In this document: positions 15,245-40,632 of the stretch, one piece after another
How the letters are laid out: each line of letters starts with the position of its first letter
Position numbering within the stretch: the stretch's first letter is position 1
Assembly (NCBI RefSeq): GCF_039729145.1
Contig: NZ_CP155793.1
Span: 2,790,001-2,854,000 of the forward strand
From: Microbacterium sp. SY138
GTDB lineage: Bacteria > Actinomycetota > Actinomycetes > Actinomycetales > Microbacteriaceae
Length of the DNA stretch: 64,000 nucleotides
Direction of reading: 5' to 3'
Notes under the pieces: model-generated
The model's input: only the letters and a program-made list of their open reading frames with translations
What the model was told of the DNA's origin: nothing
The model's database searches: none
Made by a program: the position numbers and the translations under genes

Positions 15245-15278
15245 GGGTGGAACTCTACGCCGCTCGCGCAGTGTGAGC

Positions 15279-15296
15279 ATCGTCCGAAAGGACGAT
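15279..15296. promoter_or_regulatory. Palindrome ATCGTCC-GAAA-GGACGAT between kinase gene and ABC operon
   Basis: A perfect 7-bp inverted repeat around GAAA in the 162-bp divergent promoter region. It covers a possible alternative start of the kinase and is 111 bp upstream of the FtsX-type gene. As DNA it could be the response-regulator operator; as RNA it would form a GAAA-tetraloop hairpin. I favour the operator. Confidence 0.45.
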
Positions 15297-15406
15297 TGGC
15301 GGCTCCGCATTCCAGTCGCGAAACGCTGTTCGGGCGGCCGATGACCCGCCGTGTGCGGAAGGCGAGAGTGGAGTAGTCGCCGTCCGGTGACAGGAAAGGC
15401 AGCCCC

Positions 15407-16477
15407 ATGTTCGTCGCTCTACGCGATCTCCGCTTTGCCCGCGGCCGGTTCATCCTCATCGGCTCCGTCGTCGCTCTTATCACCGTTCTCGTGGGATTCC
15501 TCAGCGGGCTGACGGGAGGACTTGCCACGCAGAACGTTTCCGCCATCCTGGCGCTTCCCGCTGACCGCATCGTGTTCTCCTCCCCCACAGTGGGAGACAG
15601 CGCAGCCAGCTTCTCCGACTCGACCATCACGGAACAGCAGGCGGCCGATTGGGCGGCGACGAACGATGTCACCGCGGCGCGTCCTATAGGAATCAGCCAG
15701 ACCCGCGGCGAGACGGCCACCACCCGCGCCGCGATCGCCGTGTTCGGCGTCGAACCGGGATTCGCCGCCACTGCCCCGACCACTGATGGGCAGCTGAGCC
15801 TGTCGGACCCTGCCGCGGAAGCCCTCGACGTAGCCATCGGCGATGACGTCACTATCGCCGGTGTCGCCTACACGGTCGAAACGATCGACGGAGACGGGTG
15901 GTACAGCCACACTCCTGTCGTGCAGATGACCCTTGAGGACTGGCAAGCCTACTCGGTCGCCACCGGCACCCCCGACGCCTACGCCACAGTCCTCGCCGTT
16001 AAAGGAACTCCGGACTGGGACACCGCCGACACGGCGAACAGCACCATCTCGGAGACAACCCTCGGATCGTTGACAGCGCTGAGCGCTTTCCGTTCGGAGA
16101 TCGGGTCCCTGCTTCTCATGGTCGCCATGCTGTTCGGCATCTCCGGTCTCGTCATCGGGGCCTTCTTCACCGTCTGGACCATGCAACGAAAAGGCGACGT
16201 CGCCGTCCTCAAAGCACTCGGAGCCAGCACCCGGTCCCTCATCCGGGACGCACTCGGTCAGGCACTGATCGTGCTCCTCCTCGGGATCGGAATCGGTCTC
16301 GGCATCGTCACACTGCTCGGCACCCTCGCCGGCACCGCGCTCCCATTCCTGCTGAGCCCAATCACGACCCTCCTTCCCGGGGGCATCATGATTGCCCTCG
16401 GCCTCGCCGGGGCCGCATTCGCGCTTCGATCCGTCACCTCCGCCGACCCCCTCACCGCCCTCGGGAGCAACCGATGA
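15407..16477 (+). CDS. FtsX-family ABC transporter permease
   Basis: 356 residues with the MacB/FtsX layout: TM1 at about 14-37, a large extracytoplasmic domain (about 45-225), then three TM helices (about 232-260, 285-315, 325-345). The FtsX core motif QRKGDVAVLKALGASTRSLI precedes TM3. It forms a half-exporter with the ATPase whose ATG overlaps its stop. Likely roles are efflux or removal of envelope-active compounds. Transcribed away from the two-component system, which probably regulates it. Confidence 0.9.
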   Translation: MFVALRDLRFARGRFILIGSVVALITVLVGFLSGLTGGLATQNVSAILALPADRIVFSSPTVGDSAASFSDSTITEQQAADWAATNDVTAARPIGISQTRGETATTRAAIAVFGVEPGFAATAPTTDGQLSLSDPAAEALDVAIGDDVTIAGVAYTVETIDGDGWYSHTPVVQMTLEDWQAYSVATGTPDAYATVLAVKGTPDWDTADTANSTISETTLGSLTALSAFRSEIGSLLLMVAMLFGISGLVIGAFFTVWTMQRKGDVAVLKALGASTRSLIRDALGQALIVLLLGIGIGLGIVTLLGTLAGTALPFLLSPITTLLPGGIMIALGLAGAAFALRSVTSADPLTALGSNR

Positions 16478-17166
16478 TCCGCCTGAACAACATCACCCTC
16501 ACCTTCCCGGACGGCGATGCCCGGGTAACCGCCGTCGACAACGTCTCCCTCACTGCGCACCCTGGAACTGTCACCGGCATCACCGGACCCAGTGGTTCCG
16601 GCAAATCCAGCCTCCTCGCCGTCGCCGCAACCCTCATCCGCCCCGATTCCGGAACGATCCTCATCGACGACGTCGACGTCACCACACTCAGCCTCAACGA
16701 CGCCACACACCTGCGACGGGACAACATCGGAATCGTCTTCCAGCAGCCGAACCTCATCCCTTCCCTCACCGCCCGAGAACAGCTGAGCGTCATGAACGAG
16801 CTCGGCGCTCCCCACAGCCGTCGCAACCGCGCCAGAACGGCTGCTCGCGCCGACGACCTCCTGGACGCGGTCGGCCTCTCAAGCCAAGGCGACAAGCGGC
16901 CACACCAACTTTCCGGCGGTCAGCGTCAACGCATCAACATCGCGCGGGCCCTGATGAACGACCCCAGTGTTCTCCTCGTCGATGAGCCCACCAGCGCCCT
17001 CGATCAGGACCGAGGTGCGAGCATCATCGACCTCATCCTTCGCCTTACCGACGAGTTGAACACGTCAACCCTGCTCGTCACTCACGACCTCGTGCACCTG
17101 CCACGTATGCACGGGGTCGTGCACCTCGTCGATGGTCGACTCGTCGACACCCTCGTCAACGCCTAA
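16474..17166 (+). CDS. ABC transporter ATP-binding protein (MacB/LolD type)
   Basis: 230 residues with complete ABC motifs: Walker A GPSGSGKSS near 43, Q-loop VFQQPNLIP, signature LSGGQRQR near 150, Walker B VLLVDEPTSALD and the H-loop VTHD. It drives the FtsX-type permease encoded immediately upstream with a 4-bp ATGA overlap. Confidence 0.95.
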   Translation: MIRLNNITLTFPDGDARVTAVDNVSLTAHPGTVTGITGPSGSGKSSLLAVAATLIRPDSGTILIDDVDVTTLSLNDATHLRRDNIGIVFQQPNLIPSLTAREQLSVMNELGAPHSRRNRARTAARADDLLDAVGLSSQGDKRPHQLSGGQRQRINIARALMNDPSVLLVDEPTSALDQDRGASIIDLILRLTDELNTSTLLVTHDLVHLPRMHGVVHLVDGRLVDTLVNA

Positions 17167-18193: not shown

Positions 18194-21100
18194 CTACAGC
18201 GACGGCCCGACCCGCTGCGCTGCGGTGCAGCGCGCCTGTTCCTGTTCAGGCTGGTTGTCCTGGGCGAGGTTCTGTGCCCGGTCGAGAGCGGCACGAGCGC
18301 GGGTGACGTCAATCTTCTGCGCCTCCGACTCGGCCGGCGCCCCGAGTGGTGATGATCCGGTGATGCCGTAGCGGTCGCGGTAGGCGGCGATGGTGCGGGC
18401 ACTGTAGCGCCATGCCCGGACCGCTCGTGGCTGCTTCGGTGGCGTGCCGAGCTTCGTGATCCACTCGTGTTTGTCTGTGAGGGCGGTGTCGAGGAGGGCA
18501 TCGGCGCGGTTCTCGATGAGCTCACGCCGCTCGGTCAGCGCCCGCCGCATCTCGGACGGCATGAAGCCGGTGGCTTCCGGGATGAGGCCGGCGATCAGGC
18601 GCGCGGCGTTGCGAGCGCGGCCGGCGCCTGCTGGGCGGGAGGTCGCTTTCGTTACGCGGTCGTGCAGGACGGCGGCGATGTCGTCGGCGTCGCCGAACCC
18701 GCGCGCTCTGACCAGGCGTGACAGCAGGGTGTCGATGTCGTGCTGGTTTGATTCTGCCCGTCGAAGCTCGGCGTTCAGTGCTCCGAATGCGGGTGACGTG
18801 ATCGCGGCCTCGGCATCGTTGTCGGTGAGGCCCGAGGATCGGATGAGTGCGGCCCAGCGGTCGTGCTGTGCGGCGGCGGCCAGGGTTTCGTACTCGGCGG
18901 TGAGCTGGCCGATCGAAGCCCAGGCATCCTGCTCGTCGGCGACGGTCTCGTGCGCGGAGAGCTCGGCACCGACGTGCTGCAGCACCCCGAACAACACCGA
19001 CCGGGCGGTCGCTTCGGTATCGTCGCCGGGGTGCGGGCCGTCGTGGGCGGGGTCGGGCTTGTCGACGGCGACGTAGGCGATGTTCTCCTCGCGACCGCGG
19101 GTCATGGCGACGTAGAACGTCTCCCTGGTCATCGACGCATCCGCGACTACGTGAGAGGAGTCCACGGTGATGCCCTGCGCCCGGTAAGAGGTGACGGCGT
19201 AGCCGAGGTCGAGATGTTCGGCCGCGTAATCGGCCGGGACCACCACCGACCCGCCCCACCTGCGCCCTGCCCGTCCGAGGGTGAGGGCGCCATCAGCGCG
19301 GACCTCGGCGATCACCCACCTGTCGCCGTTGCGAACCCAAGACCGGCCGGCGCGCAGGCGGCGGTCGTTGCGGCGGGTGACGACGGTATCCCCGGCCGCG
19401 GCGCGGGTGCCGTCGTGTAGTTCGACCTCGCGGCGTACGTTCACTGTGCCGTCGAGGATCAGATCGACGCGCGCTCTGTTGTTGAGGGCCTGGACGGATT
19501 CGTTGGAGTCGGTCACGAGGACGCTGGCCCGCCCGGCGAGAGTGTCGGCGCGCCAGGCGGCGTAGGCGGCGTCGATCATCTCCTCGGTGTCACCGCCGAT
19601 CACGCGGCGGTGCTCGGCGTAGGTGTCAATGACCTCGGTGCGCCCGTGCCGCAGACGGAGGGAGGCGGTCTTCTCCCATGGGTTGACGAATCTGTGCACG
19701 TCGACCAGCTCTGGAGCGTCGTCGCGATCATGAACGAGCAGGGAGAACGCGCCGCCTGCGTCGACGGGCTGGAGTTGCGAGTGATCGCCGACTAGCAGCA
19801 CCTTTGCCCCGGCTTCCGCGGCCAGGGCTGCGATGCGGTCGAGGGAGAGCGTACCCGCCAGCGACGCCTCATCGACGATAGCGAGCTGACCCCTGCGGAA
19901 GGTCTCGCCGGTGCGGTCGTGGGTGTCGAGCCACTTGGCCGTGTTCTCGGTCTGGATGCCGAGGTCATCGGCCAGTACCTGCGCAGCGACCGCGGACGGT
20001 GCGAGTCCGATCACGCTGCCGCGCCCATGTTCGTGCTCCCACGCCCGCCGCAACGCCGACATCGCCGTCGTCTTCCCCGCCCCCGCCGGACCGACCAGCA
20101 CGTCGACCACCCGCCCGGAGACGGCGATCTTCGTCAACGCGGACGCCTGGTCGTCACCGAGTATCCGCCCCTTGCTGTCGGGCCGCGTCGTGATCCGTTC
20201 GACGGTCGTCAGCGGGACAGTCGGGGCGGTGATGGTGCGGGCGCGCGCGAGGAGGCTGTCCTCGGCCGCCAGGAGTACCTCGGACGTGAACAGCGCGGAG
20301 TGCTTCGGTCGGAACACGCTCGTGCCATCCGGCCGGCGGAACGCAGCCGGGCTCGACGCAAGCTCGGGCGGGGTCAGGCGCAGCGACACGGCCTCGGCGG
20401 CATCGACGACCAGGCCAACGACGGCTTCTCGATCCTCGGTCGATGCGAACCGGTAGCCCATCGTCTGCCGCGCCGCCTCCGCGGTGAGGTTCCAGCGATG
20501 CCAGGTGGAGCGCTTCTCACCGACCGCGGTCACCACGTCCCGCCCGAGCGAGGAGATCACATCCAACGGTACGTCGTCGGCGCGCAGCAGTAGCGGCTTC
20601 TCGTTCACCGTCACGGTGCGCGCCCACGCGGTCGCTTCCGACCCGAGTGCCCGCCCGGCGCGCTCCCACCAGGATGCGGTGAGGTCGGCCAGCGACCGCA
20701 CCTCCTTCTCGGGCCGGGTGGACAGCGTAGCCTGGGCGCGAAGCTTCATGATCGTCGTCGGCGACGGCCGCCGCCCGCGCGCCTCGACGTACTGGCCGAT
20801 GAGGCGATCCGTCTCGGCGTCGATGTGCCGGGCACGGGTGGAGAACTCCTTGACCAGGACCTCCGGCACCGCGGTGATCGCCCATGCCGGGTTCCGGTCG
20901 CGGCCCCTGTCACGCGCCTCCCACGAGACCCCGAGCATCCGTGTCAGGTGATCAGCGAACACCGCCTCGTGCAGTTCGGAGAGGGCGACGACGGCGGTAT
21001 GGATCGGCCGCCCATCCAACGACCGCCACTTGTTGTCGAGGACGGTCTGCACCTTGTTGCTGATAACGACATGCGTGTGCAAGTGCGGATCACCCGCCCT

Positions 21101-21751
21101 CGAGTCGTAGTGATCGAACGCCGTAGCACTCAGACCGCGGACGTCGACCTGAGCAACCGCACCGTCACGACCGGTTGCACCGGTCCGGGTGGCTGCAACC
21201 TCCCGCTCCATGAATGCAACCACCTCCGCAACCGCCGCATGATGCGCGCCCGCGATCAACGCCTGCGTCCCCGCATCCGCGACCGCCCACAGCACGCTGG
21301 CGGACTTCGGGATCGAGAACGTGAAGTCGAACCCCGCCACCGCCCGCCGTGTCCCTCGCTCCGTCTGCTCGGCCTCGATAGCGACGGCGGCTTCAGCGCG
21401 TGATGCCGGCCCGAGGGCTGGATCGAGTGCCGCGGTGTGTGCCTCAATCCGCTCGGCCACGCTCTGATATTCGGGGTACGCACGCCCGAGCGGTTCGCCG
21501 GTGATGGGGTCGCGGCCCATGCCTACCAGGAGCTGGAGCTGAGCTTCGGAGACCTGATCGCCCACGCCGATCCTCCCGCCACCGAGCACTGCCACCCCGG
21601 CCCCAAGCCAGCGACCCGGCGGGGTACCCTCAGCGTTGTAATAGCGCGTCAACGGGGTAGAGAGCGACCTGTCGCCATCGCCGGCCGCGACGGTGCGCAG
21701 CAGGTACTTGTACCCGTCGCCCGCGCTCATCACACGCATCGACACCGTCAT
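18194..21751 (-). CDS. traA-like: MobF-family conjugative relaxase with RecD-like helicase (TrwC/TraA type)
   Basis: 1185 residues from the ATG at 21751. The N-terminal relaxase domain has the catalytic tyrosine pair in LSTPLTRYYNAEG (about 37) and the three-His metal site AGDPHLHTHVV near 225. The C-terminal half is a superfamily-1 helicase: Walker A VGPAGAGKTTAMSALR, Walker B AIVDEASLAG, LLVGDHSQLQPVDAGG and the late motif TSYRAQGITVDSSHV. It nicks oriT, stays bound to the 5' end and unwinds the strand for export through the type IV channel. It is transcribed leftward, opposite the transfer operon, and is the outermost recognisable element gene on this side. Confidence 0.95.
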   Translation of the reverse strand: MTVSMRVMSAGDGYKYLLRTVAAGDGDRSLSTPLTRYYNAEGTPPGRWLGAGVAVLGGGRIGVGDQVSEAQLQLLVGMGRDPITGEPLGRAYPEYQSVAERIEAHTAALDPALGPASRAEAAVAIEAEQTERGTRRAVAGFDFTFSIPKSASVLWAVADAGTQALIAGAHHAAVAEVVAFMEREVAATRTGATGRDGAVAQVDVRGLSATAFDHYDSRAGDPHLHTHVVISNKVQTVLDNKWRSLDGRPIHTAVVALSELHEAVFADHLTRMLGVSWEARDRGRDRNPAWAITAVPEVLVKEFSTRARHIDAETDRLIGQYVEARGRRPSPTTIMKLRAQATLSTRPEKEVRSLADLTASWWERAGRALGSEATAWARTVTVNEKPLLLRADDVPLDVISSLGRDVVTAVGEKRSTWHRWNLTAEAARQTMGYRFASTEDREAVVGLVVDAAEAVSLRLTPPELASSPAAFRRPDGTSVFRPKHSALFTSEVLLAAEDSLLARARTITAPTVPLTTVERITTRPDSKGRILGDDQASALTKIAVSGRVVDVLVGPAGAGKTTAMSALRRAWEHEHGRGSVIGLAPSAVAAQVLADDLGIQTENTAKWLDTHDRTGETFRRGQLAIVDEASLAGTLSLDRIAALAAEAGAKVLLVGDHSQLQPVDAGGAFSLLVHDRDDAPELVDVHRFVNPWEKTASLRLRHGRTEVIDTYAEHRRVIGGDTEEMIDAAYAAWRADTLAGRASVLVTDSNESVQALNNRARVDLILDGTVNVRREVELHDGTRAAAGDTVVTRRNDRRLRAGRSWVRNGDRWVIAEVRADGALTLGRAGRRWGGSVVVPADYAAEHLDLGYAVTSYRAQGITVDSSHVVADASMTRETFYVAMTRGREENIAYVAVDKPDPAHDGPHPGDDTEATARSVLFGVLQHVGAELSAHETVADEQDAWASIGQLTAEYETLAAAAQHDRWAALIRSSGLTDNDAEAAITSPAFGALNAELRRAESNQHDIDTLLSRLVRARGFGDADDIAAVLHDRVTKATSRPAGAGRARNAARLIAGLIPEATGFMPSEMRRALTERRELIENRADALLDTALTDKHEWITKLGTPPKQPRAVRAWRYSARTIAAYRDRYGITGSSPLGAPAESEAQKIDVTRARAALDRAQNLAQDNQPEQEQARCTAAQRVGPSL

Positions 21752-21948
21752 ACGTCCGCTCCTCTCCACCTACTCACGAGGTGAGCAGCAGCCCGCCGAA
21801 AGCGTGCTCACCCTCGATCTGCAAGAGGCGTGGCAGCTGATCAGTGCGCTAGCTCGAGGCGCCCCGAGATCCGCGCAGGATCACCGTGTATGTGCGGCGC
21901 TGCCCGTGTAATGCCGTGCGAACTAGTAGCAACAGAGATCGCCGTGCT
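21752..21948. other. Intergenic region upstream of the relaxase, candidate oriT
   Basis: 197 bp between the relaxase start and the hydrolase end. It contains several short inverted repeats, including CTCACGAGGTGAG near 21774 and the near-palindrome CTCGAGGCGCCCCGAG near 21852. MobF relaxases usually act at an oriT close to their own gene. No nick site can be named from sequence alone. Confidence 0.3.
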
Positions 21949-23091
21949 TCAATCGACGACCACTGTCGATAGCCAGGCGCTGACGCTCGAACGCCAGCGC
22001 TCAGGGTCAGAATTCCATGCCATGGAATGGCCCGCCGCGAACGCAACTAGTTCGACGAAGCCAGGACGTCGATCGCGGAGGGCTTCGGACACCGCAGGGG
22101 GGACCGAATCGTCTCGGTTGCCGTGCAGAATCAAAGTCGGCACGGTGAGATCTCGGGCTCGCTCGATCCAGTCCATCTCCCGAAGCGAAATGGCCCCCGG
22201 CAGCCCGGCTACGCGAGCGAGCGGATCAAGCGTCAACCAGGGCAACGAGAGACGGCCCGCCACAGCCGGCAGTCCGCTTCGTACACAATTGGCTTCGATC
22301 ACCTCGATCCAACTGAGCACTGGAGAATCCAGTACCAGCGCGGCAATCACCCCCGCAGACCGCATCCGATCCGCAACGCGCAGAGCAATGGCAGCGCCCA
22401 ACGACCATCCGAAGAGAACGATCCGCTCAGCGCCCTGTTTGACGGCATACTCGACAGCAGCCTCGACATCGTCGGCCTCCGAGTAGCCCAGCGTTGAGCG
22501 ACCCTTCTCAACGCTCGGCCCCTCACCGTCATTGCGGAAGCTGACGACGAGCGACGTCCAGCCAAGCTCAGCAGTCACCTGCACACCGCGTAGCGTTCCT
22601 CGTCGGCGCCCGCCCATGCCATGGACGTGAATTGCCCATGTCGCCGCGCGGTGCTCGCCGTCGGCGAGCCATGCCGGGGCCGGACCCGCGGGCGTAGTGA
22701 TGAAGACCTCCCGCACGCTGAGGCCCGCTGCCGCGGGGCCATCGAAGTAGATCCCGCTCCACGAAAAGGATGCCCCCAGAGATGGGAGGCGACCGGACGC
22801 GGCATGCGTCACGACCCGAGCGATCTGGCCAGGCCCTCGATCGATCACCTCGTCGGAGACTTGCACCCACTCCCCCGTTTCGAACCACAGGCTGAATATG
22901 CCTGGCGCGGCCGTGGAGCGAGTGCGGTCGAGAATGAGCAAACGCCGATCCCCGTCAGTCTCCATATCTCGAAGTCTCAGGTCGAAGGTTCGAGACCCGA
23001 CCGCCGACGTTAGCTTCCGAGCGAGGACCCAGCCGAGGCTCATCGCACCCGCACAGAGGAGCACAACGCTCGCTGCAACGATGCGCCTCAT
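21949..23091 (-). CDS. Membrane-anchored alpha/beta hydrolase
   Basis: 380 residues. The N-terminal 25 residues are a signal anchor (RRIVAASVVLLCAGAMSLGWVLA). An N-terminal beta-rich domain leads to an alpha/beta hydrolase core with oxyanion strand AIHVHGMGG (about 155), nucleophile elbow LFGWSLGAA (Ser about 228), acid loop ILHGNRDDSVPP and catalytic His in AAGHSMAW. It probably acts outside the membrane on an ester or peptide-like substrate. Its ATG overlaps the stop of the multi-TM gene, so it is the last member of a translationally coupled XRE/protease/TM/hydrolase set within the element. Confidence 0.85.
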   Translation of the reverse strand: MRRIVAASVVLLCAGAMSLGWVLARKLTSAVGSRTFDLRLRDMETDGDRRLLILDRTRSTAAPGIFSLWFETGEWVQVSDEVIDRGPGQIARVVTHAASGRLPSLGASFSWSGIYFDGPAAAGLSVREVFITTPAGPAPAWLADGEHRAATWAIHVHGMGGRRRGTLRGVQVTAELGWTSLVVSFRNDGEGPSVEKGRSTLGYSEADDVEAAVEYAVKQGAERIVLFGWSLGAAIALRVADRMRSAGVIAALVLDSPVLSWIEVIEANCVRSGLPAVAGRLSLPWLTLDPLARVAGLPGAISLREMDWIERARDLTVPTLILHGNRDDSVPPAVSEALRDRRPGFVELVAFAAGHSMAWNSDPERWRSSVSAWLSTVVVD

Positions 23092-24113
23092 GTTCGGTCT
23101 CGTTCGTCAAGAGAGCGCGGCGCAACGACCGCGGGCTTTCCGTTGGCACCTGCGCCGCTGCTTCCGAGGAGGTGGCGTTCCGCCTGCTCGAGTAGCGTCT
23201 CTTCTGCGTTAGTGACCTCGAACGCAGTACGCGGGTCGATCATCGCGTCTCTGATCTCGACGATCTCACGGTGGAGGCGGCTTTCATGGTCTTCGATTTG
23301 CGCTGTCGAAGACTGCGCCTTGCTGAGACCTGGCCGCACTCGCACAGCCCGATGCCACAGTGAGTCGAGTCGCTGCAACATCTCGGCCGTTCGCGCGCGA
23401 CGAGCCCGCTCCTGCAAGTTGCGGACCATCGGCTGCACGGCGAAGCCCGCACACAGAAAAAGAAAGGCGAGGAGAGACAGCGGCCCGTACGCGGCGCCGA
23501 CGGAGCGCATGAATTGAAGATTGCCGGTGACGTGCGCCAGATCCATGGTGATCACGGCGACACTGAGCGCGATACCTGAGCTCGAGCCCATGAGAAGTAG
23601 CAAAGCGGGAACCAGCTGCGCCCCTTTGCCGATGCGGAACTGCCTCATCGCCAGTGTGAGCATCGCACCCAAGATGATCCCGCAATAGGTGAACACAATG
23701 ATCGAGTACGCCGCGACCCACGGCTGCGCACCGAGGTCGCGCATGAAGGTCACCGTCGTCGCCCCGCGATCGATGAGGAAAAACGCCATTGTTGTTCCGA
23801 CGAGTGCGTTGAACAATGCGGGGCGACCGACCGCTGCGCGCACCAGCCGCGGACGGTACTCGCCAGCCTTCATCGCCGCTCGTCCGAGGAAGAAGAGCCC
23901 GATGATCAGAAGGCCATCCGAAAGCAGCATCGCGTGATTCGTCGATCCCAGCAAACCATCGACGGCGACGTAGACGGCGTCGACGTTGAGTGTCATGGCG
24001 ACAGCGATCGTGAGGGCAGCGTAAGTAATACTGCGGTCCGTCCGCCGGCGTCGAAAAATGAGCAGGCTCGCCACGAGCACCCATAAGAGCGTCGCGATGA
24101 GCGTCTGGATCAT
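23088..24113 (-). CDS. MAB_1171c/DUF6545-like multi-TM protein
   Basis: 341 residues from the ATG at 24113. Seven hydrophobic segments run from residue 2 to about 225, then a long cytosolic tail (about 230-341) rich in charged helices (RTAEMLQRLDSLWHRAVRV, HESRLHREIVEIRDAMIDP). This layout fits the actinobacterial family named after MAB_1171c, usually found beside ImmA/IrrE-like and XRE genes. A transporter label is used for the family without proof; a sensor is equally possible. ATGA overlaps link it to both neighbours. Confidence 0.75.
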   Translation of the reverse strand: MIQTLIATLLWVLVASLLIFRRRRTDRSITYAALTIAVAMTLNVDAVYVAVDGLLGSTNHAMLLSDGLLIIGLFFLGRAAMKAGEYRPRLVRAAVGRPALFNALVGTTMAFFLIDRGATTVTFMRDLGAQPWVAAYSIIVFTYCGIILGAMLTLAMRQFRIGKGAQLVPALLLLMGSSSGIALSVAVITMDLAHVTGNLQFMRSVGAAYGPLSLLAFLFLCAGFAVQPMVRNLQERARRARTAEMLQRLDSLWHRAVRVRPGLSKAQSSTAQIEDHESRLHREIVEIRDAMIDPRTAFEVTNAEETLLEQAERHLLGSSGAGANGKPAVVAPRSLDERDRT

Positions 24114-24574
24114 CCGAAGATCTCCGAATAACGAGACTCCGCGAAAACAGACCCCCGAATACCCGCCGCGAGCCGGTCTGCCAGTGACTCGGCGGCAATC
24201 TCGGTCTCGGTGTCGAAATCCTGGCGTCTGAGTAGACGCGTTCTGGTGTGCGGTGGGATGTCTGGCAGGAGAGCGTCCGTGACGGAACATTCGTCCCCGT
24301 CGCAGTGTCCGAGCAGTATGTGAGCGAACTCATGGAGCACGAACTGTTGTTGATGCAGGACCGAGTCGCTGTGCGCATGAAGGATCACGTCCTCTGCTCC
24401 GGTCGTCAGCCATATTGCGCAGACGCCATCATTGTCGCCCAGCGCACTCAGCTCGACGACGCGGAGGCGTCGTCGACGACGCTGCCTCACGGCGCCCAGC
24501 AAGTCCTCGAACGTGAAGACGCTACCCAGGGCGAGTTCCGTCACGGCCGTCGTGACGGCCTGATCAAGGTCCAC
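24110..24574 (-). CDS. ImmA/IrrE-like metalloprotease
   Basis: 154 residues from a GTG at 24574. The zinc-protease helix HEFAHILLGH is near residue 80 and a downstream Glu-containing helix (TETEIAAESLADRLA) near 125 could supply the third ligand. ImmA/IrrE proteins cleave or inactivate a partner XRE repressor; in ICEBs1 this releases excision and transfer. The XRE gene is 59 bp upstream on the same strand, so this is its likely partner. Confidence 0.85.
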   Translation of the reverse strand: MDLDQAVTTAVTELALGSVFTFEDLLGAVRQRRRRRLRVVELSALGDNDGVCAIWLTTGAEDVILHAHSDSVLHQQQFVLHEFAHILLGHCDGDECSVTDALLPDIPPHTRTRLLRRQDFDTETEIAAESLADRLAAGIRGSVFAESRYSEIFG

Positions 24575-24633
24575 GGTGTGCTCACTCTCTTCGAGGGCAT
24601 CTACCGGCGTCTACTCCACTTCGGGGGACGTCG

Positions 24634-25065
24634 TCACTGCTCGACTGTGTTTGCCATTTCCTCATCAAGGAACTTGCTAATGGCTTGGAGCGCTCTCGGC
24701 GAGATGTCTCCAAGCGTGCGCGCTGCGTAGGTCTTGACCTTCGCAGCGCGCATGGAGCGCACGAGGTCAAGCTGCGCGCTAACTCTTGCCGGGACCGCGG
24801 CCCCATTCGCACCCAAAAGGAACTCGGCGTCAACGTTAAAGAATGCAGCCAGCCCCTCGAACACCTCCGGATCTTGCACGTATCGGTGGCCGTTCACCAT
24901 GTAGGTCCAGCGCGATCTCGACAGATTGGTGCCGCGGTCACCCAAGTAGGCGGCGATCTGGGAGTACGTCGGTTCAGCACCAGACTCGGCGATCGCGACG
25001 TCAAGCAGCAGCCGCAGGCGTTTCGCGAGATCCGCTGCCGCATCCTTGCTCTCGTCTTCGGTCAT
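24634..25065 (-). CDS. XRE-family repressor
   Basis: 143 residues. The HTH spans about 30-75 (EPTYSQIAAYLGDRGTNLSRSRWTYMVNG) and has the variant seen in ESX-linked and element-borne XRE proteins, followed by an alpha-helical dimerisation tail. It reads leftward from a promoter filled with four 14-bp palindromes and would repress itself and the divergent transfer operon. Candidate substrate of the adjacent ImmA-like protease. Confidence 0.85.
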   Translation of the reverse strand: MTEDESKDAAADLAKRLRLLLDVAIAESGAEPTYSQIAAYLGDRGTNLSRSRWTYMVNGHRYVQDPEVFEGLAAFFNVDAEFLLGANGAAVPARVSAQLDLVRSMRAAKVKTYAARTLGDISPRALQAISKFLDEEMANTVEQ

Positions 25066-25080
25066 GGTGGCTGACCTCCT

Positions 25081-25183
25081 TTGTGCATGCTCAATCTACC
25101 CGTTGAGCATGACCAAATCAACAGTTGCGCATGCCCACCGTCGATGTTAGAACTGAAGCCTCAGACCGTTTGAGCATGCTCAA
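25081..25183. promoter_or_regulatory. Operator array: four copies of TTGAGCATGCTCAA
   Basis: Box A 25081-25094 TTGTGCATGCTCAA (1 mismatch), box B 25103-25116 TTGAGCATGACCAA (2 mismatches), box C 25125-25138 TTGCGCATGCCCAC (degenerate) and box D 25170-25183 TTGAGCATGCTCAA (perfect palindrome). A, B and C start exactly 22 bp apart, placing them on one DNA face; D is 45 bp further. Box A lies 15 bp upstream of the XRE start. The array is in the right place for cooperative control of both divergent promoters by the XRE protein. Confidence 0.8.
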
Positions 25184-25402
25184 CGCTCGTGATGTGGCGC
25201 GACTGCACTCCTGCTCAAAGGGAGGCGAACCATGCCCAGAACCATGACGATGACGGCGCCCTATTCCATGCTCGTGCGCGACGAGCGTGCGCGAGCCGTG
25301 CGGCCGCATCCCTCATCGTTCTCTCGCGGGCGCCCGCGCCCACCTCTCTGGTGTGGCGCCGCGCCTCTCCCGGTCGTGGCGTCCCAGAGAGGAGGCCATC
25401 CG

Positions 25403-26488
25403 ATGGTCGCGACCGAAGTTCGCCGGGCAGCGCGCGAAGCCAAGCTTGACGAGGTCCACGAGAAGCTGGTGGATGCCGTTGATCGACTTCTGTCTGGGGA
25501 CGACTGGGCGAAGGCGCTCACCTTCGCGGCCCGTTTCCGCAGCCGCTCTTTCAACAACACCTTGCTGATCTGGATCCAGCACTCTCTGGCGCACGAAGCA
25601 GGACTCGTAGCGGAGCCGACGCCGTCGTACGTCGCCGGGTACAAGCAGTGGCAGCATCTGGGGCGCCAGGTGGAGAAGGGCCAGCCCGGCTATCAGATCC
25701 TCGCCCCCGTCACGGGGCGTTTCGCGTCACCCAATCCATCCGATCCGGCATCGTGGCGACGACTCAATCGCTTCGAGAAACCCCGTCCCGGTGAGATTGT
25801 GCGCTCGAAGATGATCGGTGTTCGCCCCGCGTACGTGTGGGATGCCTCCCAGACTTCCGGCGACGCGCTTCCGACCACACCGGCGCCGGCTCTGCTGAAA
25901 GACGAGGCTCCGTCGGGGCTGTGGAATGGCATCGCACGGCAGATCGAAGCGGCCGGTTTCACCGTTCTCGGCGTCGCGCACGAGGGCATGATCTACGGCG
26001 CGAATGGCGTCACCGACTATACCCAGAAGACCGTGACCGTCCGAGAAAACATGGATCCCGCGGCCCGCGTGAAGACTCTCGCTCATGAACTCGCTCATGT
26101 GCTCATGCACGGCCCTGATCAGGATGTGGCGAGACAGCATCGTGGTATCGGCGAGGTGGAGGCCGAGTCGGTCGCGCTCATGATCGGTGCCGCCCACGGC
26201 ATGGACACCAGCGGCTACACGATTCCGTACGTGTCGACCTGGGCTGCGCAGGTCGATGGGCAGGAGCCAGCCGAGATCGTGCGCGCTACAGGTGAACGGG
26301 TCCGCGCCGCTGCGATGAAGATTCTGGACCAGCTCGACACCGAGATGCTCGGCGACGGTACCCCGCCAGGACTTGAACGATCGTCGACGCGGATCGTTGT
26401 GCCCACCTCGAACCGCGCGAGTCGTGCACTGGCGACCTCAACGAACGCAGAGCGTGCGGCTCTGACCGAATCGCGGACGCTGCGATGA
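25403..26488 (+). CDS. ardC-like: ArdC-like antirestriction protein (ssDNA-binding domain plus zinc metallopeptidase)
   Basis: 361 residues from the ATG at 25403 with GAGAGGAGG upstream; in-frame sequence before it is not conserved. The N-terminal domain (about 10-120) has the ArdC-type ssDNA-binding pattern FNNTLLIWIQH and YKQWQHLGRQVEKGQPG. The C-terminal half has the zincin motif TLAHELAHVLMHG (about 230) and EVEAESVALMIG. ArdC proteins of conjugative plasmids protect incoming single-stranded DNA. First gene of the rightward transfer operon and overlaps the primase gene by ATGA. Confidence 0.85.
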   Translation: MVATEVRRAAREAKLDEVHEKLVDAVDRLLSGDDWAKALTFAARFRSRSFNNTLLIWIQHSLAHEAGLVAEPTPSYVAGYKQWQHLGRQVEKGQPGYQILAPVTGRFASPNPSDPASWRRLNRFEKPRPGEIVRSKMIGVRPAYVWDASQTSGDALPTTPAPALLKDEAPSGLWNGIARQIEAAGFTVLGVAHEGMIYGANGVTDYTQKTVTVRENMDPAARVKTLAHELAHVLMHGPDQDVARQHRGIGEVEAESVALMIGAAHGMDTSGYTIPYVSTWAAQVDGQEPAEIVRATGERVRAAAMKILDQLDTEMLGDGTPPGLERSSTRIVVPTSNRASRALATSTNAERAALTESRTLR

Positions 26489-27438
26489 ACACCGCCGCGT
26501 TCATACGGACACTCGACGGCTCGGGCCGTGGGCTCTCGACCGCTGAGAGCGCGCTCGCTTACGCAGCTCACGGCATCCCCGTGTTCCCGTGCGCGGCGGG
26601 CGGGAAGCGCCCCGCGGTGGCTGGAGGATTTCACGCCGCCAGCACCAACCACGTGCTCGTGCGTCGATGGTGGACGGCGATACCCAGCGCGAACATCGGC
26701 ATCCCGACCGGCGCCGCATCGGGCCTCGTCGTCGTTGACGTTGATGTGCACGGCTTCGTCGATGGTTACGAGACGCTGGATCGCGCGCGGGCTGAAGGTC
26801 TCGTGGATGGCTGGACTGCTGCAGTGAGAACCCCGTCGGACGGTCTGCATCTGTACTACCCCGCGGCGAGCGGGTCGGAGGAGCGGTCCTGGCAGTGCGC
26901 ACGAGCGGGCATCGACTTCCGCGGCGACGGCGGTTACATCATCGTTCCGCCGTCAAGTCGAGTGATCGACGGGCGTCCGCGGCGGTATGAGGTCCTTCGG
27001 CTCGCCAGTGAAAGCGTGCATGGGTTCAACGCGGAGCGACTTCGCGACTTCCTCGATCCTCCCCGTAGGGCCGATCAGGCCCGCGGTGGCGATCAGGCCC
27101 GCGGTGGCGATCAGGCCCGCGGTGGCGATTCGGCGATCCGATCGGGCGATGTGCAGCGTCTCGCCGAGTGGGTCGCTCGGAGGCAGGAAGGCGAACGTAA
27201 CCACGGGGTCTTCTGGGCGGCTTGCCGGATGGCGGAGCATAGTGTTTCTCCGTTCGAAGCGCTCGATGCACTCACGGCGGCCGGTGCGCAGGCCGGGCTC
27301 ACTGAGCGCGAGGTGACGACGACCGTCCGCTCTGCCTACCGAAGTGTTCAGGGCGCACCGGCCAGGCCGTTAGCTCCTGCGTCGTCGGCGCCACCTCACA
27401 GGCCATCAAGCGGCATAGAGCCACGGGCACTGGCATGA
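26485..27438 (+). CDS. Bifunctional DNA primase/polymerase (prim-pol) domain protein
   Basis: 317 residues. The prim-pol fold covers about 17-195: ALAYAAHGIPVFPC, the metal motif VVVDVDVHG (DxD), HLYYPAASG and GIDFRGDGGYIIVPPS. A tandem DQARGG linker follows and a C-terminal helical region (GERNHGVFWAACRMAEHS) resembles the PriCT-like tail. It probably primes complementary-strand synthesis or replication of the excised circle. It sits between the ArdC-like gene and the DUF2637 gene, with overlaps on both sides. Confidence 0.88.
   Translation: MNTAAFIRTLDGSGRGLSTAESALAYAAHGIPVFPCAAGGKRPAVAGGFHAASTNHVLVRRWWTAIPSANIGIPTGAASGLVVVDVDVHGFVDGYETLDRARAEGLVDGWTAAVRTPSDGLHLYYPAASGSEERSWQCARAGIDFRGDGGYIIVPPSSRVIDGRPRRYEVLRLASESVHGFNAERLRDFLDPPRRADQARGGDQARGGDQARGGDSAIRSGDVQRLAEWVARRQEGERNHGVFWAACRMAEHSVSPFEALDALTAAGAQAGLTEREVTTTVRSAYRSVQGAPARPLAPASSAPPHRPSSGIEPRALA
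27073..27126 (+). repeat. Three exact tandem 18-bp repeats inside the primase gene
   Basis: GATCAGGCCCGCGGTGGC is repeated three times without a mismatch, encoding DQARGG three times in the linker between the prim-pol and C-terminal domains. The unit is a multiple of three, so copy-number change by slippage would lengthen or shorten the linker without a frameshift. Confidence 0.95.
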
Positions 27439-28034
27439 GGAACATCAGGGGGCGACGAGTGGCTGTCATGACAGCCGTCGCGGGCACGGTGTTCATCGCC
27501 GCCGGAGCGTTCTGGCTGTCATTCACCTCGCTCGTGGACCTTGCTGCGCGCTCAGGAATCGGCGACGGGCAGGCGTGGGCATGGCCGCTCATCGTCGACG
27601 GGGTCATCGTCGTCTCGACTGTCGCCGTCGTCGCCCTCGCCGATTCACGAGCCGCCTGGTATCCATGGACGCTCCTCGCGGGCGCTGCGGCAGTATCAGT
27701 GACCGCAAACTCGCTTCATGCCGTCGTCGCCGCCGATTCAGACATGCCCGGCTTCCTCGCCGCGGCCGTCGCGGCCGTGCCACCGGTGGTCTTGCTTGCG
27801 ATCACTCATCTGACGGTGCTTTTGATCCGCGCGCCAGAAACCGTAGTTCCGAGCGAGTCGGTCTCGCCGCAGGAGCGCGCAACGGCATTTCGGGCGGAGG
27901 GATGGTCGAACAAGCGGATCGCCCGCGAGCTTGACGTTCACCCGTCGACGGTGGGCCGCTGGTTCGCCAGCGCACCTATCGAGCAGGAACGGACGGACGC
28001 CGCATCCGCCACATCCGAGGAGGCATCGGCATGA
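27435..28034 (+). CDS. DUF2637 membrane protein with C-terminal HTH
   Basis: 199 residues. Four TM segments at about 12-32, 48-68, 74-95 and 105-128 with the DUF2637 signature WAWPLIVDGVIVVSTVAVVA. The tail after 140 holds an HTH (ATAFRAEGWSNKRIARELDV, then STVGRWFAS). DUF2637 proteins are found in Streptomyces and other actinobacterial conjugative elements. The fused HTH suggests a membrane-tethered DNA-binding role, possibly tying element DNA to the membrane. Overlaps both neighbours by ATGA. Confidence 0.85.
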   Translation: MRNIRGRRVAVMTAVAGTVFIAAGAFWLSFTSLVDLAARSGIGDGQAWAWPLIVDGVIVVSTVAVVALADSRAAWYPWTLLAGAAAVSVTANSLHAVVAADSDMPGFLAAAVAAVPPVVLLAITHLTVLLIRAPETVVPSESVSPQERATAFRAEGWSNKRIARELDVHPSTVGRWFASAPIEQERTDAASATSEEASA

Positions 28035-28399
28035 GCGAAATCGAGAATGAAACGCCGCGCAACGTTGATCGAGAAGACGACGGACTCGCGACAGCCCCCG
28101 AGGCCGTCGAAGCGACAAGCGTGCGCAGTCGCCGTCGGTGGGCGGTGGTGAACCCGGCGTCGCACCCCGGCCGTGGCGTCGAGTGGGTGCGCCCAACGGA
28201 TCTGATGGCGCGCAGCGGTTCCCGTGTGGCCGGAGCGGGGATCAACTTCCAAGCCGAGCTTCATCGACGCACTCGCGATGCCGCGACGACCAGCATCCGC
28301 GGCATCGCGGAGCGAGCCCGACGACTCCCACCCGTCTCCGCGTTCGGACACGGCTCCTCTCGACGCGGGACAGAGCGCGGCGTGGTCGGCGCCGCCTGA
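28031..28399 (+). CDS. Hypothetical element protein, basic
   Basis: 122 residues. The N-terminus is acidic; a central motif WAVVNPASHPGRGVEWVRPTDL and a basic C-terminus (FQAELHRRTRDAATTSIRGIAERARRL) suggest nucleic-acid binding. It starts within the DUF2637 stop codon and is cotranscribed. I do not recognise a family with known function; similar short proteins accompany DUF2637 in related elements as far as I recall. Confidence 0.6.
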   Translation: MSEIENETPRNVDREDDGLATAPEAVEATSVRSRRRWAVVNPASHPGRGVEWVRPTDLMARSGSRVAGAGINFQAELHRRTRDAATTSIRGIAERARRLPPVSAFGHGSSRRGTERGVVGAA

Positions 28400-28495
28400 A
28401 CCACACACTCGAGACAACCTGATGGGAACCCACCGGCATCCAGGACCCCCGTTGGGGAGCGGGCGCGCACCTGCATGTCAGGAGGTGTCTTCGCC

Positions 28496-29353
28496 ATGAC
28501 CCATCACAGTTCACCGCTGCAATCGCGCGAGGATTACAGAACGAGCGAAGGGCTGCGCGCCCTGCTCAATCGCCTGCATCACGCGGGTGCCCGCGCCTGG
28601 GCGCACGACCGCGTTGCCGCTGATCTCGCCGTGTTCTCGGCCGAGAAGTACGGCGCCTTGGCACGTAAGCACGGCCTCGACCCCTGGGAGGCAGCGTCGG
28701 CAGCATTCGACGTCATGCGAACCCGCTCCGCACGAGAAGCAGACGATCCGTGGGCCGTCGTCACTCGCGGTGTTCAGATCACCTGCATCGCCGAGGAGCG
28801 CGGGCAAGGCTTGTTGTGTGCGACTCACCAAGCTCGCCGACCTCATGTCTCCGCTTTCCATGATCCGGAACGGTTTGCCGATCGGGAGACTCCGCTGGCC
28901 GATTACCATCCGGCGTTCCACGTCCAAGACGACTATCCGAGTGCTCAAGACGACGACGCCTACTATGCACCCGAGGACGTCGACACTGCCCACCGTGCGG
29001 TCGAACTGTCGATCGTCCTCTTCACGACCTTGGGATGGCCGGAGAGCACTGCGCGCGCAGCGATCGAGTACGTCTGCGCCGCGGTCGCACGGGCCGGGTC
29101 TCGACAGAGCGCCTGCGAGCTGCTCCGCCGCGACAAGCACGCCCGAGCGCTGCTCGATCTGCCTGCCGACTCGTGGTCGGCACTGCTGCGTGTGCTGCTC
29201 GGGCATCCACATCCTGCATACCGGTCAACCAGCGCCGGTCGCGGCATCCTGTTCCGTCTGCTCGTCGGCGACACGCTGCCCGCGTTGCTCAGTGATGACG
29301 ACCTGGTGATGACGATCGCGATGTCCACGCCCACGCACGGGGGCAGGCGATGA
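28496..29353 (+). CDS. Hypothetical element protein of 285 residues
   Basis: Start at the ATG 28496 behind GGAGGTG. Two alpha-helical halves: a first with LNRLHHAGARAWAHDRVAADLAVF and DPWEAASAAFDVMRTRSARE, a second with a run of helices around STARAAIEYVCAAVARAGS, ending DTLPALLSDDDLVM. The first half loosely resembles a sigma-factor-like or DNA-binding helical bundle, but no motif is decisive. It directly precedes the ParB gene (ATGA overlap), so a role in partition or transfer regulation is possible. Confidence 0.6.
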   Translation: MTHHSSPLQSREDYRTSEGLRALLNRLHHAGARAWAHDRVAADLAVFSAEKYGALARKHGLDPWEAASAAFDVMRTRSAREADDPWAVVTRGVQITCIAEERGQGLLCATHQARRPHVSAFHDPERFADRETPLADYHPAFHVQDDYPSAQDDDAYYAPEDVDTAHRAVELSIVLFTTLGWPESTARAAIEYVCAAVARAGSRQSACELLRRDKHARALLDLPADSWSALLRVLLGHPHPAYRSTSAGRGILFRLLVGDTLPALLSDDDLVMTIAMSTPTHGGRR

Positions 29354-30357
29354 GCACCGACAACGGGCACATCGAACTGGAACGGTCGGTCGACTCGATT
29401 CGGGTCGGGCTACGCCACCGAACGGAGCTCGGCGACCTCGCCTCGCTTGCCGCGTCAATCGAGCGGGAAGGCCTGCTGCAACCGATAACCGTCACGCCAG
29501 AAGGGATCCTCGTCTGCGGTGCACGGCGACTGGCCGCGATCAAGCAACTCGGGTGGCTGCACGTCAAAGTGTGGGTGCGTTCGGGCATCTCGGGAGACCT
29601 TGGGTACCTGCTTGCTGAGCAAGACGACAATGTGCTCCACAAGCCGCTCACTCAACTGGAGAACGCGACTCTGTACCGAGAGATCAAGACGCTGATGGCA
29701 GAGGATGCCGCTCGCCGCCAGGAAGCGTCGCGCTTCAGCAGGGTGAACCAGCCCGGAGATCACGGTGCCGCCAATCTTGCGGCACCGTCAGAGGCTGTGG
29801 GCGACACACGCGAGCAGGCCGCTGCGATGATCCCAGATGGCCCCTCCCACACCACGCTCGAGAAGATCAACTACCTGCAGCACCTCGTCGACGATGAGAC
29901 CCAGCCCGAGTCCGTGCGCGAGGGCGTCGCAGCCGAGCTGGAGCTCATCGGATCCGGGTCAGCCGTGCACCCGAGCTACGAACGGGCACGCCAACTCGTC
30001 GCTGCGGCGCAGCCCGGCGGGAGTGGGGATAACGTGGCGAAACTCGCTAAGGAAGCCCTGGCTCGCATCAAAGGCAAGCGGATGCCCAAGCGACGCCCGT
30101 CGCCAAGCCCTGCTGCCCGTACGGACGGCGATGACCCGTGGCCCGTGCGCGCGTTCGTCGTGACGTGGACTGAGCTCGACGGCTGGTGGCGGCACTTCAC
30201 CGTCGACGACCTGGCTCATCAGCTCAGCGACGCCGAGGTCGACCTCTTCCTCCACGTCGTTGATGCCACGGTCGACGTCGCTAAGCAGCTCCGAGCATTT
30301 CGAAACGACGCCGACTCAGACACCGAGACGACAGCGCGGAGCCTTCGCGCGATCTGA
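29350..30357 (+). CDS. parB-like: ParB/Spo0J-like partition protein
   Basis: 335 residues. The ParB N-terminal nuclease-like domain is visible: VDSIRVGLRHRTELGDLASLAASIEREGLLQPITV, then GILVCGARRLAAIKQLGW (the GxxR box). An HTH-like region follows (NATLYREIKTLM, AAAMIPDGPSHTTLEKINYL), then a basic linker and a helical C-terminus. No ParA gene is adjacent. In conjugative elements solitary ParB-like proteins can act as regulators or as nucleoid anchors for the circular form. Confidence 0.85.
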   Translation: MSTDNGHIELERSVDSIRVGLRHRTELGDLASLAASIEREGLLQPITVTPEGILVCGARRLAAIKQLGWLHVKVWVRSGISGDLGYLLAEQDDNVLHKPLTQLENATLYREIKTLMAEDAARRQEASRFSRVNQPGDHGAANLAAPSEAVGDTREQAAAMIPDGPSHTTLEKINYLQHLVDDETQPESVREGVAAELELIGSGSAVHPSYERARQLVAAAQPGGSGDNVAKLAKEALARIKGKRMPKRRPSPSPAARTDGDDPWPVRAFVVTWTELDGWWRHFTVDDLAHQLSDAEVDLFLHVVDATVDVAKQLRAFRNDADSDTETTARSLRAI

Positions 30358-30387
30358 GCAGGGGTCAGGGCTGCGCACCTGCCCGGC

Positions 30388-31071
30388 ATGAAGCACCAGA
30401 TAGCTCGCCGTTCGCGCCGCACCTTGGTCGCACTGATCGCCGTCGCGGTGATGGCCGTCCTCGTCGTCGCTGTCGGCACCTACGGACTCATCTCCGGATC
30501 ACCCGAGCCGGAGGACTCGCCGGAGCCGACCTCGTCGAGCGCCGCGCCGACCACCGAGCATTCTCGTCGACCTGCCACGACGGCACCGCGACTTCCGACG
30601 ATCCTGCCCACTCGAGATGCAGAGACGTTCGCGGGCAGCGTCGCGACGGCGCTGTTCACGTGGGACACCGGCGTCGGTTTCGTTCCGCTCGACTACACCG
30701 ACGTCATCCTCGACGTCGCCGATCCCACCCCTGCCGAACAGCCAGGGCTCGCGGCCGACATCGCCACCTACCTGCCGACGCAGAACGCGTGGGTGCAGCT
30801 GGGTCAGTACGCGACGACGCAACGTCTGGAGGTCACGTCAATGTACGTGCCGGATGCCTGGTCCGAGGCGCTCTCGCAGGCACGGCCCGGACAACTCCCC
30901 GAAGGCGCGACCGCGTACACGATCGAGGGCATCCGTCACCGCGCTGGCACGTGGAACGGCGATTCGATCGCTGCTCAGCAAGAGGTGGCGCTCACGGTGT
31001 TCATCGCTTGCCCGCCCGGTGACAGTTGCTACGTTCTGCGGCTGTCCGAGCTGAACAATCCGCTCCGATAG
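30388..31071 (+). CDS. TcpC/VirB8-like conjugal transfer protein
   Basis: 227 residues. One N-terminal TM segment (about 12-33), a Ser/Pro/Thr-rich linker, then an alpha/beta domain (residues about 70-225) with FAGSVATALFTWDTGVGF, WVQLGQYATTQRLEVTSMY and CPPGDSCYVLRLS. The topology (one TM plus outside NTF2-like domain) and the position match TcpC of Gram-positive type IV systems, an assembly factor of the mating channel. The ATG follows a GCGCACCTGC spacer motif by 5 nt and there is no clear ribosome site. Confidence 0.65.
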   Translation: MKHQIARRSRRTLVALIAVAVMAVLVVAVGTYGLISGSPEPEDSPEPTSSSAAPTTEHSRRPATTAPRLPTILPTRDAETFAGSVATALFTWDTGVGFVPLDYTDVILDVADPTPAEQPGLAADIATYLPTQNAWVQLGQYATTQRLEVTSMYVPDAWSEALSQARPGQLPEGATAYTIEGIRHRAGTWNGDSIAAQQEVALTVFIACPPGDSCYVLRLSELNNPLR

Positions 31072-31083
31072 GACGGCCGACTC

Positions 31084-32531: not shown

Positions 32532-32644
32532 CCTCATCGCCCCGCGTGCGACTCGGCATGCGACTGGTGGTGAGGAGCTGCGCACCTGGCTCTCGACCAT
32601 CTTTCGCCTACCGCCCGTGGCGGTGTTCATGCCGAGGAGCCACC

Positions 32645-32956: not shown

Positions 32957-32990
32957 GGCCACTCGGTCGCAACCCGTTGGGAACCCCGCG

Positions 32991-34346: not shown

Positions 34347-34352
34347 CGCATC

Positions 34353-38205: not shown

Positions 38206-38240
38206 CCCGACGCGAGGAGCCGCTCGCGCACCTGCGTGGC

Positions 38241-40630: not shown

Positions 40631-40632
40631 TC

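Follow-up and report, generated by a model that had tools for sequence, protein, structure and literature searches.

A repressor-protease unit with a seven-helix membrane protein and a hydrolase on a conjugative-type element of Microbacterium: A candidate signal-responsive transfer switch

In ICEBs1, an integrative and conjugative element (ICE) of Bacillus subtilis, repression by ImmR is lifted by ImmA under the control of RapI/PhrI and RecA (PMC6540685). TnSmu1, an ICE of Streptococcus mutans, is controlled by an ImmRA repressor-metalloprotease pair (PMC10233336), and pairs of an Xre regulator and a COG2856 protease have been proposed to be toxin-antitoxin (TA)–like (PMC2701414). Repressor-protease pairs are, in other words, already known. 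Here, we analyze a unit in which such a pair is accompanied by a seven-transmembrane (7TM) protein and an alpha/beta hydrolase. It is located in a 64,000-nucleotide (nt) stretch of DNA from the soil actinobacterium Microbacterium sp. SY138 (contig NZ_CP155793.1, positions 2,790,001 to 2,854,000; hereafter, the window), part of a 3.9–million base pair genome in a single contig. The part that appears to be new is the 7TM partner together with the varying enzymes found beside it in relatives: The literature searched (titles and abstract openings, with subscription papers and preprints outside its scope) held no description of this partner, of its constancy, or of the varying enzymes, and nothing on DUF6545, its family, by name; the related MAB_1171c is named in one paper.

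In the BlaR1/MecR1-BlaI systems, a membrane sensor leads to repressor proteolysis, with sensor and protease contained in one polypeptide; here, the putative sensor and the protease are encoded by two genes. According to open reading frame (ORF) calls, the minus strand of the window carries a leftward chain of genes for an XRE-type repressor, an HExxH protease, the 7TM protein, and the hydrolase (Table 1). As a previous reading of the sequence alone had it, the last three genes are joined by 4–base pair (bp) ATGA overlaps (24110-24113 for protease/7TM and 23088-23091 for 7TM/hydrolase), while the repressor gene is set apart from the protease gene by 59 bp and from the ArdC gene by 166 bp. The adjacency of a helix-turn-helix (HTH) repressor gene and an HExxH protease gene is that of ImmR/ImmA-type ICE switches. 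The likeness to the ImmR-ImmA-RapI-PhrI system of ICEBs1 lies in the HTH repressor, a metalloprotease in a presumed anti-repressor role, the conjugative element, and the predicted control of transfer genes (PMC6540685). What sets the unit apart from ICEBs1 is its EspR-like repressor, the 7TM membrane protein that accompanies the protease, and the inclusion of an enzyme gene. Family searches, which covered the four genes and not the remainder of the element, revealed no Rap or Phr match. The TnSmu1 report speaks of two components in its abstract, with no mention of a membrane receptor or enzyme (PMC10233336). The Xre-COG2856 pairs of Makarova et al. (2009) resemble our unit in combining an Xre regulator with a COG2856 zinc protease, but the accessible text describes no 7TM partner (PMC2701414).

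Table 1. Coordinates of the four-gene unit, its predicted regulatory sites, and neighboring genes in the window.
Feature	Position	Strand	Basis
XRE/EspR-like repressor (P0001)	24634-25065	-	143 aa, ORF
ImmA-like HExxH metalloprotease (P0002)	24110-24574	-	154 aa, GTG start
7TM DUF6545/MAB_1171c-type protein (P0003)	23088-24113	-	341 aa
Membrane-anchored alpha/beta hydrolase, esterase/lipase type (P0004)	21949-23091	-	380 aa
Operator O1, perfect 14-bp palindrome TTGAGCATGCTCAA	25170-25183	.	motif scan, locus alignment
Operator O2, 3 mismatches in window	25125-25138	.	motif scan
Operator O3, 2 mismatches	25103-25116	.	motif scan
Operator O4, 1 mismatch	25081-25094	.	motif scan
Predicted repressor-operon promoter, TTGATT (25116-25121), 17 nt, TAGATT (25093-25098)	25093-25121	-	by eye; O3 and O4 overlie
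Predicted ArdC/transfer-run promoter, TTGCGC (25125-25130), 17 nt, TAGAAC (25148-25153)	25125-25153	+	by eye; O2 over -35, O1 downstream
ArdC-like antirestriction protein (P0006)	25232-26488	+	ArdcN 34.0 bits (cut-off 22.6), M78 27.7 bits (22)
17 co-directional frames after ArdC	26485-41673	+	hand-picked from ORF list, gaps <=75 bp
MobF/TrwC relaxase-helicase, next after hydrolase	18194-21769	-	TrwC 292 bits; NF041492 224.9 bits, cut-off 100

To estimate how constant the unit is, 11.3 million genome contigs were scanned with the 7TM protein alone, neighbors being disregarded, which yielded 79 loci (80 of 85 confirmed matches). Related ORFs were present for the protease in 79 loci, the 7TM protein in 77, the repressor in 77 (L039 and L065 being without it), the hydrolase in 74, ArdC in 61, where it is upstream and divergent, and MobF in 9. 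The hydrolase ORF was found in all 74 testable loci, as the remaining five (L036, L057, L067, L077, and L111) end near or inside the 7TM gene. All four proteins cover at least 80% of the query in 70 loci, the window included. The four genes thus co-occur in conserved order in loci that had been collected blind to their neighbors, which is what the sequence-only reading had proposed to look for. Two loci are disrupted: L039 (9774-14804) has no repressor, its protease is shortened, and its hydrolase is in two parts with two other ORFs between them; in L110 (9931-11019), the 7TM gene lies in two overlapping frames. Among 249 genomes of the bacterial family, a 7TM match was detected in 23 (own genome and weak matches included), a patchy distribution as expected for mobile DNA; the nearest named relatives of the protein come from Microbacterium.

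Removal of 7TM sequences closer than 3% left 53 nonredundant loci, for which pairwise distances were compared. Neighbors in the chain gave the highest rank correlations (repressor-protease, 0.82; protease-7TM, 0.79; 7TM-hydrolase, 0.82), and nonneighbors gave lower ones (repressor-7TM, 0.64; protease-hydrolase, 0.69; repressor-hydrolase, 0.58). Where backbone proteins of the element were included (36 to 48 loci), M23, ParB-like, Prim-Pol, c2, c7, and ArdC correlated with each other at 0.72 to 0.85, with the repressor and protease at 0.30 to 0.51, and with the 7TM protein and hydrolase at 0.57 to 0.75; for the neighboring repressor and ArdC, the value was 0.48 (45 loci). Since chain neighbors correlate best and backbone proteins mostly with each other, the four-gene unit seems to have a partly separate history, as far as sequence divergence can tell. 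Several points limit this interpretation. Physical linkage alone could yield part of the chain correlations, and the unequal gaps on the two sides of the repressor gene bear on the comparison; the repressor has diverged little (median, 0.20), which adds noise to its correlations; and with Pearson coefficients, 7TM-ArdC (0.84) and hydrolase-ArdC (0.85) are as high as protease-7TM (0.84).

The relationship between the four genes becomes looser in distant relatives. Of 42 such loci (2 plasmid and 40 genome stretches), 38 have a protease ORF adjoining the 7TM gene, 29 have a repressor, and 10 have a hydrolase match, which is strong in 7; the profiles were built partly from the same loci, but a simple search for HExxH picks out the same 38. 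The idea of four genes in one fixed operon was too narrow and was dropped, as both order and enzyme vary among relatives. Two Micrococcaceae plasmids (L113 and L114) have the order protease-7TM-hydrolase-repressor, a third (L199) has the same order judged by gene size and position, with a subthreshold HTH hit for the last gene, and in L184, the hydrolase gene is convergent. Since 38 of 42 distant loci keep protease and 7TM protein while the enzyme varies, the sensor-protease pair appears to be the constant part and a small-molecule enzyme a frequent but not constant one. By sequence comparison, the core is protease plus 7TM protein; next to it lies a hydrolase, another enzyme (P450 or FAD monooxygenase), or none.

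The alternative enzymes were seen both in plasmids and in genomes. Ten of 16 plasmid records were inspected (H16-H19, H21-H24, H28, and H30, the last with a match covering only 35% of the query; H20, H25-H27, H29, and H31 were left out); from a separate set of 11 records, three were inspected (H1, H9, and H11). Among these plasmids of Mycobacterium, Nocardia, and Rhodococcus, 7 of the 10 inspected records have a cytochrome P450 gene immediately behind the 7TM gene, and 8 of the 10 have a methyltransferase gene at a distance of about 4 kb or less. Three inspected plasmid records have an HTH gene, a small gene, a DUF6545 gene, and a P450 gene in direct succession; the other inspected ones have extra genes in between or lack an annotated HTH gene. 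On an M. intracellulare plasmid (L194, 4071-11077), the set of HTH gene, small gene, DUF6545 gene, and P450 gene occurs twice in tandem, with a methyltransferase gene in between. An FAD-oxidoreductase cluster is present in 10 of 31 genome loci, in 6 of them immediately behind the 7TM gene and in the same orientation, with synteny shared by some; of the three members scanned against Pfam, two pass the FAD_binding_3 cut-off, and the third is below all cut-offs. In single genome loci, the gene after the 7TM gene encodes an amidase, an amidohydrolase, or an MPAB/Lcp-like or subthreshold PAP2-like protein, and in one, it encodes DUF222. According to gene calls from a crude GC-position script, the next gene lies on the opposite strand in 17 of 30 genome loci. 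In L153, L160, and L161, two 7TM paralogues are adjacent, perhaps two receptors for one protease.

The pair also occurs in phage: Phage Adler (two isolates, the only 2 phage records with a mycobacterial-type 7TM relative and protease) has the order repressor-protease-7TM-P450. No phage record matched the 7TM protein of the window, none of 6 pattern matches among IMG/VR viral contigs was related to it, and megablast of the module against plasmids gave no match. Uncharacterized membrane proteins (242 to 262 aa) of Gordonia phages Rabbitrun and Sephiroth and Mycobacterium phage Archie have predicted structures that resemble the 7TM core; they are possibly the phage counterpart of the 7TM protein, probably without the tail, given their length. 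Apparent protease-7TM fusions in L159 and L163 were rejected: In both, the long 7TM ORF overlaps a distinct protease ORF that is in a different frame, and its length therefore looks like the result of an overextended start.

The protease carries HExxH and two further glutamates (H81, E82, H85, E125, and E129) that are invariant in 46 of 46 aligned sequences, and the assignment to the ImmA type proposed from the sequence is strengthened by this conservation. The score of the window protease against M78 (PF06114) was 13.6 bits, below the cut-off of 22, and 15 of the 46 sequences matched M78 at E <= 0.01. In 2 of the 10 plasmid records, RefSeq uses the name ImmA/IrrE for the gene that precedes the 7TM gene; three other upstream plasmid genes that were scanned had no Pfam match. 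A protease profile search did not find IrrE structures, its rows being at chance level. By analogy with ImmA, we consider it likely that the protease acts as an anti-repressor.

The 7TM protein belongs to DUF6545 (PF20182; 28.7 bits, gathering cut-off 24.4), a family of unknown function, and reaches 84.1 bits over residues 5 to 306 against NF042915 (MAB_1171c family), below the cut-off of 100. From these scores, it is a divergent MAB_1171c relative and not a filed member. Hydrophobic peaks and the distribution of Lys and Arg predict seven helices with an N-out/C-in topology in near and far sets alike. The structure model (pLDDT 91.9) resembles G protein–coupled receptors (GPCRs) at borderline significance in fold comparison; no solved GPCR homologue was found for 7TM profile A4 at E <= 5, and the protein is therefore not filed as a GPCR. 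The long cytosolic tail noticed in the sequence-only reading, residues 232 to 317, is conserved, with a motif around R282 to D289. In the family alignment, just seven columns are near-invariant, R282 and D289 among them. A receptor role for the protein is, in our judgment, reasonably probable. It could instead be a transporter or membrane tether, in which case repressor and protease would form a DNA damage–type switch and the 7TM protein and hydrolase a co-expressed export, lipid-editing, or surface function. The NCBIfam name of the family, “putative transporter,” is in line with this, as are the decrease of Mycobacterium abscessus biofilm mass by about half reported upon MAB_1171c disruption (PMC8707978), the fact that gene overlap can reflect co-expression only, and the many distant loci without an enzyme after the 7TM gene. 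Yet the protease-7TM pairing is kept in distant loci although the enzyme changes, the near-invariant residues R282 and D289 lie in the tail, and seven N-out/C-in helices generally suit a receptor better than most carriers, so that we regard a transporter or tether as unlikely.

The fourth protein has an alpha/beta hydrolase fold of esterase/lipase type with a Ser-Asp-His triad, in which D327 is taken, from its position, to be the acid. The sequence-only reading had placed the enzyme outside the membrane, and here, it is not borne out. Among 56 hydrolase sequences, 10 were without a helix by our threshold; in the other 46, the C-flank of the membrane helix is more positively charged than the N-flank in 30, equal to it in 13, and less positive in 3. 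As a few rows began inside the gene, rows starting with M were recounted, and the lean remained the same (27 of 42 more positive, 12 equal, and 3 less). That the hydrolase makes, removes, or tunes a ligand of the 7TM protein is plausible but somewhat doubtful.

A profile of 39 repressor sequences matched structures of EspR, a Mycobacterium tuberculosis regulator, with E 1.8e-28 over positions 11 to 143 of 148 (structure 3r1f), while EspR was not found with the single repressor sequence as query and the profile was needed. By this profile match, the repressor is related to EspR over nearly its full length; its Pfam HTH_31 score is 15.7 bits (cut-off 27), and R116 is invariant across the 39 sequences. 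Unlike EspR, the repressor is local to an element and has operator-like sites of its own and a partner protease. These sites, suspected from the sequence, exceed chance. Copies resembling TTGAGCATGCTCAA with at most 3 mismatches number 8 in the window compared to an average of 1.5 over 100 shuffles, the highest of which stays below 8, and 4 of the 8 sit within 103 bp between repressor and ArdC (start-to-start spacings of 45, 22, and 22 bp). Upstream of the repressor, at least 3 copies with at most 2 mismatches are present in 75 of 77 testable loci, the window included (L039, L065, and L042 were not testable); 62 of the 77 have at least 4 copies, and 69 have a perfect copy. Among distinct upstream regions, 66 of 68 have at least 3 such sites, while only 0.1% of two-base-block shuffles have at least 1. 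In the relatives L034, L035, and L094, O2 has just 1 mismatch.

The promoter boxes were read by eye from the intergenic alignment and sequence. Pairs like TTGATT-17-TAGATT and TTGCGC-17-TAGAAC recur across 64 aligned intergenic regions, and the sites overlie or flank both. A consensus scanner called 0 promoter-like sites, neither predicted promoter being among its calls, and 5 terminator-like sites compared to 7.8 in shuffles. Outside the cluster, the only window copy with at most 2 mismatches is at 8708, inside an alcohol dehydrogenase–like gene left of the relaxase, and three further copies with 3 mismatches are at 9835, 17207, and 50216. Because copies elsewhere in the window are scarce, control by the repressor looks local and limited to two promoters, one of them leading into the transfer run. 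That these sites are operators through which the EspR-like repressor represses its own operon is, in our judgment, very probable. The same features bear on whether protease and repressor are instead a TA-like or general stress module, that is, an Xre-COG2856 maintenance or stress pair with the membrane protein as effector. The proposal made for Xre-COG2856 pairs speaks in its favor, but four conserved operator-like sites next to two predicted promoters, together with the divergent ArdC run, speak for a role in regulating the element, and Xre–membrane protein pairs were set aside as TA candidates in the same study (PMC2701414). Such a module appears very unlikely to us.

The likely setting of this control is a conjugative element, as had been proposed. 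Besides the MobF relaxase, the window encodes a TraG/VirD4 coupling protein, ArdC, Prim-Pol, a ParB-like protein, a single-stranded DNA–binding protein (SSB), and M23. ArdC opens an 18-frame run that includes the VirD4-type coupling protein; the frames after ArdC comprise Prim-Pol, DUF2637, a ParB-like protein that scores under the cut-off, M23, a frame with a Walker-A motif and a weak match to AAA_10, TraG/VirD4, and SSB. One of two frames at 36667-38774 must be miscalled, since they overlap by 448 bp, and a PrgI/EccE identity of 34353-35819 was dropped, the matches being at chance level (E 0.26 to 0.52). Judged by its genes, the element is of conjugative type.

Together, these data suggest, on balance, a switch of the ImmR/ImmA type to which a membrane receptor and, with less certainty, an enzyme that modifies the signal have been added; the receptor role is the core of the proposal. 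The EspR-like repressor would bind the four operators and keep down both the operon that encodes it and the divergent run of ArdC, which has the VirD4-type gene. The ImmA-like zinc protease would remove the repressor, as suggested by the invariance of its catalytic residues and by the example of ICEBs1. The 7TM receptor may gate the protease via the conserved cytosolic tail; the reasons are that the two are almost always paired, that their genes overlap and their sequences diverge in parallel, and that the 7TM protein has a predicted N-out/C-in topology and the motif in its tail. In the weakest step, the esterase/lipase-type hydrolase might make, remove, or tune a small hydrophobic ligand of the receptor, a role that P450, methyltransferase, and FAD monooxygenase enzymes may play in sister modules. 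A shift in ligand level would let the protease act, ArdC and transfer genes would be turned on, and re-expression of the module would reset repression. The element thus probably senses a small molecule before switching on transfer to other cells. Of the signal-responsive switch outlined in the sequence-only reading, the conserved unit, the operator-like sites at both flanking promoters, the ImmA-type protease, the tailed 7TM protein, and the conjugative-type element are supported, and the outward-facing hydrolase is not.

Events at entry offer another use for the same genes. The hydrolase and 7TM protein could alter the envelope against re-entry, with repressor and protease providing immunity and zygotic control through an ArdC burst on arrival. 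Operator-like sites at the predicted ArdC promoter suit expression on entry, and the module adjoins the relaxase or, in some loci, defense cargo; however, protease and 7TM genes are multicopy in large genomes of the phylum and have metabolic neighbors there, where a use in exclusion is not obvious, which makes entry or surface exclusion quite improbable. The slot after the hydrolase is occupied by MobF in 10 of 74 loci within the fetched stretch (the window included) and by other genes elsewhere. PADLOC, run on L098, L100, and L107, identified BREX genes (BrxB/BrxC/PglX; L098, 13291-20945), an SNF2/HKD helicase with a type III methylase (L100, 12495-18330), and methylase/type IIG-like genes (L107, 12537-17417); anti-phage–type cargo clusters after the hydrolase recur in 7 to 16 loci.

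The borders of the element were compared with 28 other genomes of the genus. The left flank (13437-17166) has a full-length match in 4 of them, and the right flank (49097-52361) has matches more widely; the flanks are 0.5 to 2.1 Mb apart in G639, G651, and G656 and on different contigs in G650. No empty integration site was found among these 28 genomes and no tRNA in the window, and no systematic integrase search was made. Ten loci (L043-L050, L052, and L107) share the same stretch at about 91 to 98% nucleotide identity across different genera: Leifsonia, Leucobacter, Microbacterium, Granulicoccus, Propionicicella, Sediminivirga, and Agromyces, plus unassigned records. The query also matched Microbacterium sp. 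BR1 (L047) and Candidatus Leucobacter sulfamidivorax (L039); in sulfonamide-degrading Microbacterium, trwC is reported to adjoin the sad cluster (PMC6868719). Within the window, a 1736-aa ORF at 43094-48304 follows a DprA-like gene (42238-43221); neither Pfam nor PADLOC gave a match for it at E <= 0.001.

How actinobacterial conjugative elements time their transfer is, to our knowledge, largely open, although this is our own assessment and the literature was not searched exhaustively. The module would be a compact, testable answer, consisting of one intergenic region, a repressor, a protease, a receptor, and an enzyme, and it provides a functional hypothesis for the DUF6545 family. The occurrence of the protease-7TM pair beside varied small-molecule enzymes in plasmids, phage, and genomes offers a way to predict new actinobacterial signals. 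A bolder and, in our view, rather unlikely generalization is that repressor, ImmA-like protease, and 7TM receptor form a general, undescribed class of actinobacterial signaling, GPCR-shaped but working by regulated proteolysis and not phosphorylation, often packaged with an enzyme (hydrolase, P450 plus methyltransferase, or FAD monooxygenase) that produces or breaks down its small-molecule signal, and serving as a private chemical channel by which elements, plasmids, and phage decide when to move. If the receptor reading is true, the 7TM-protease pair would represent a new class of signaling.

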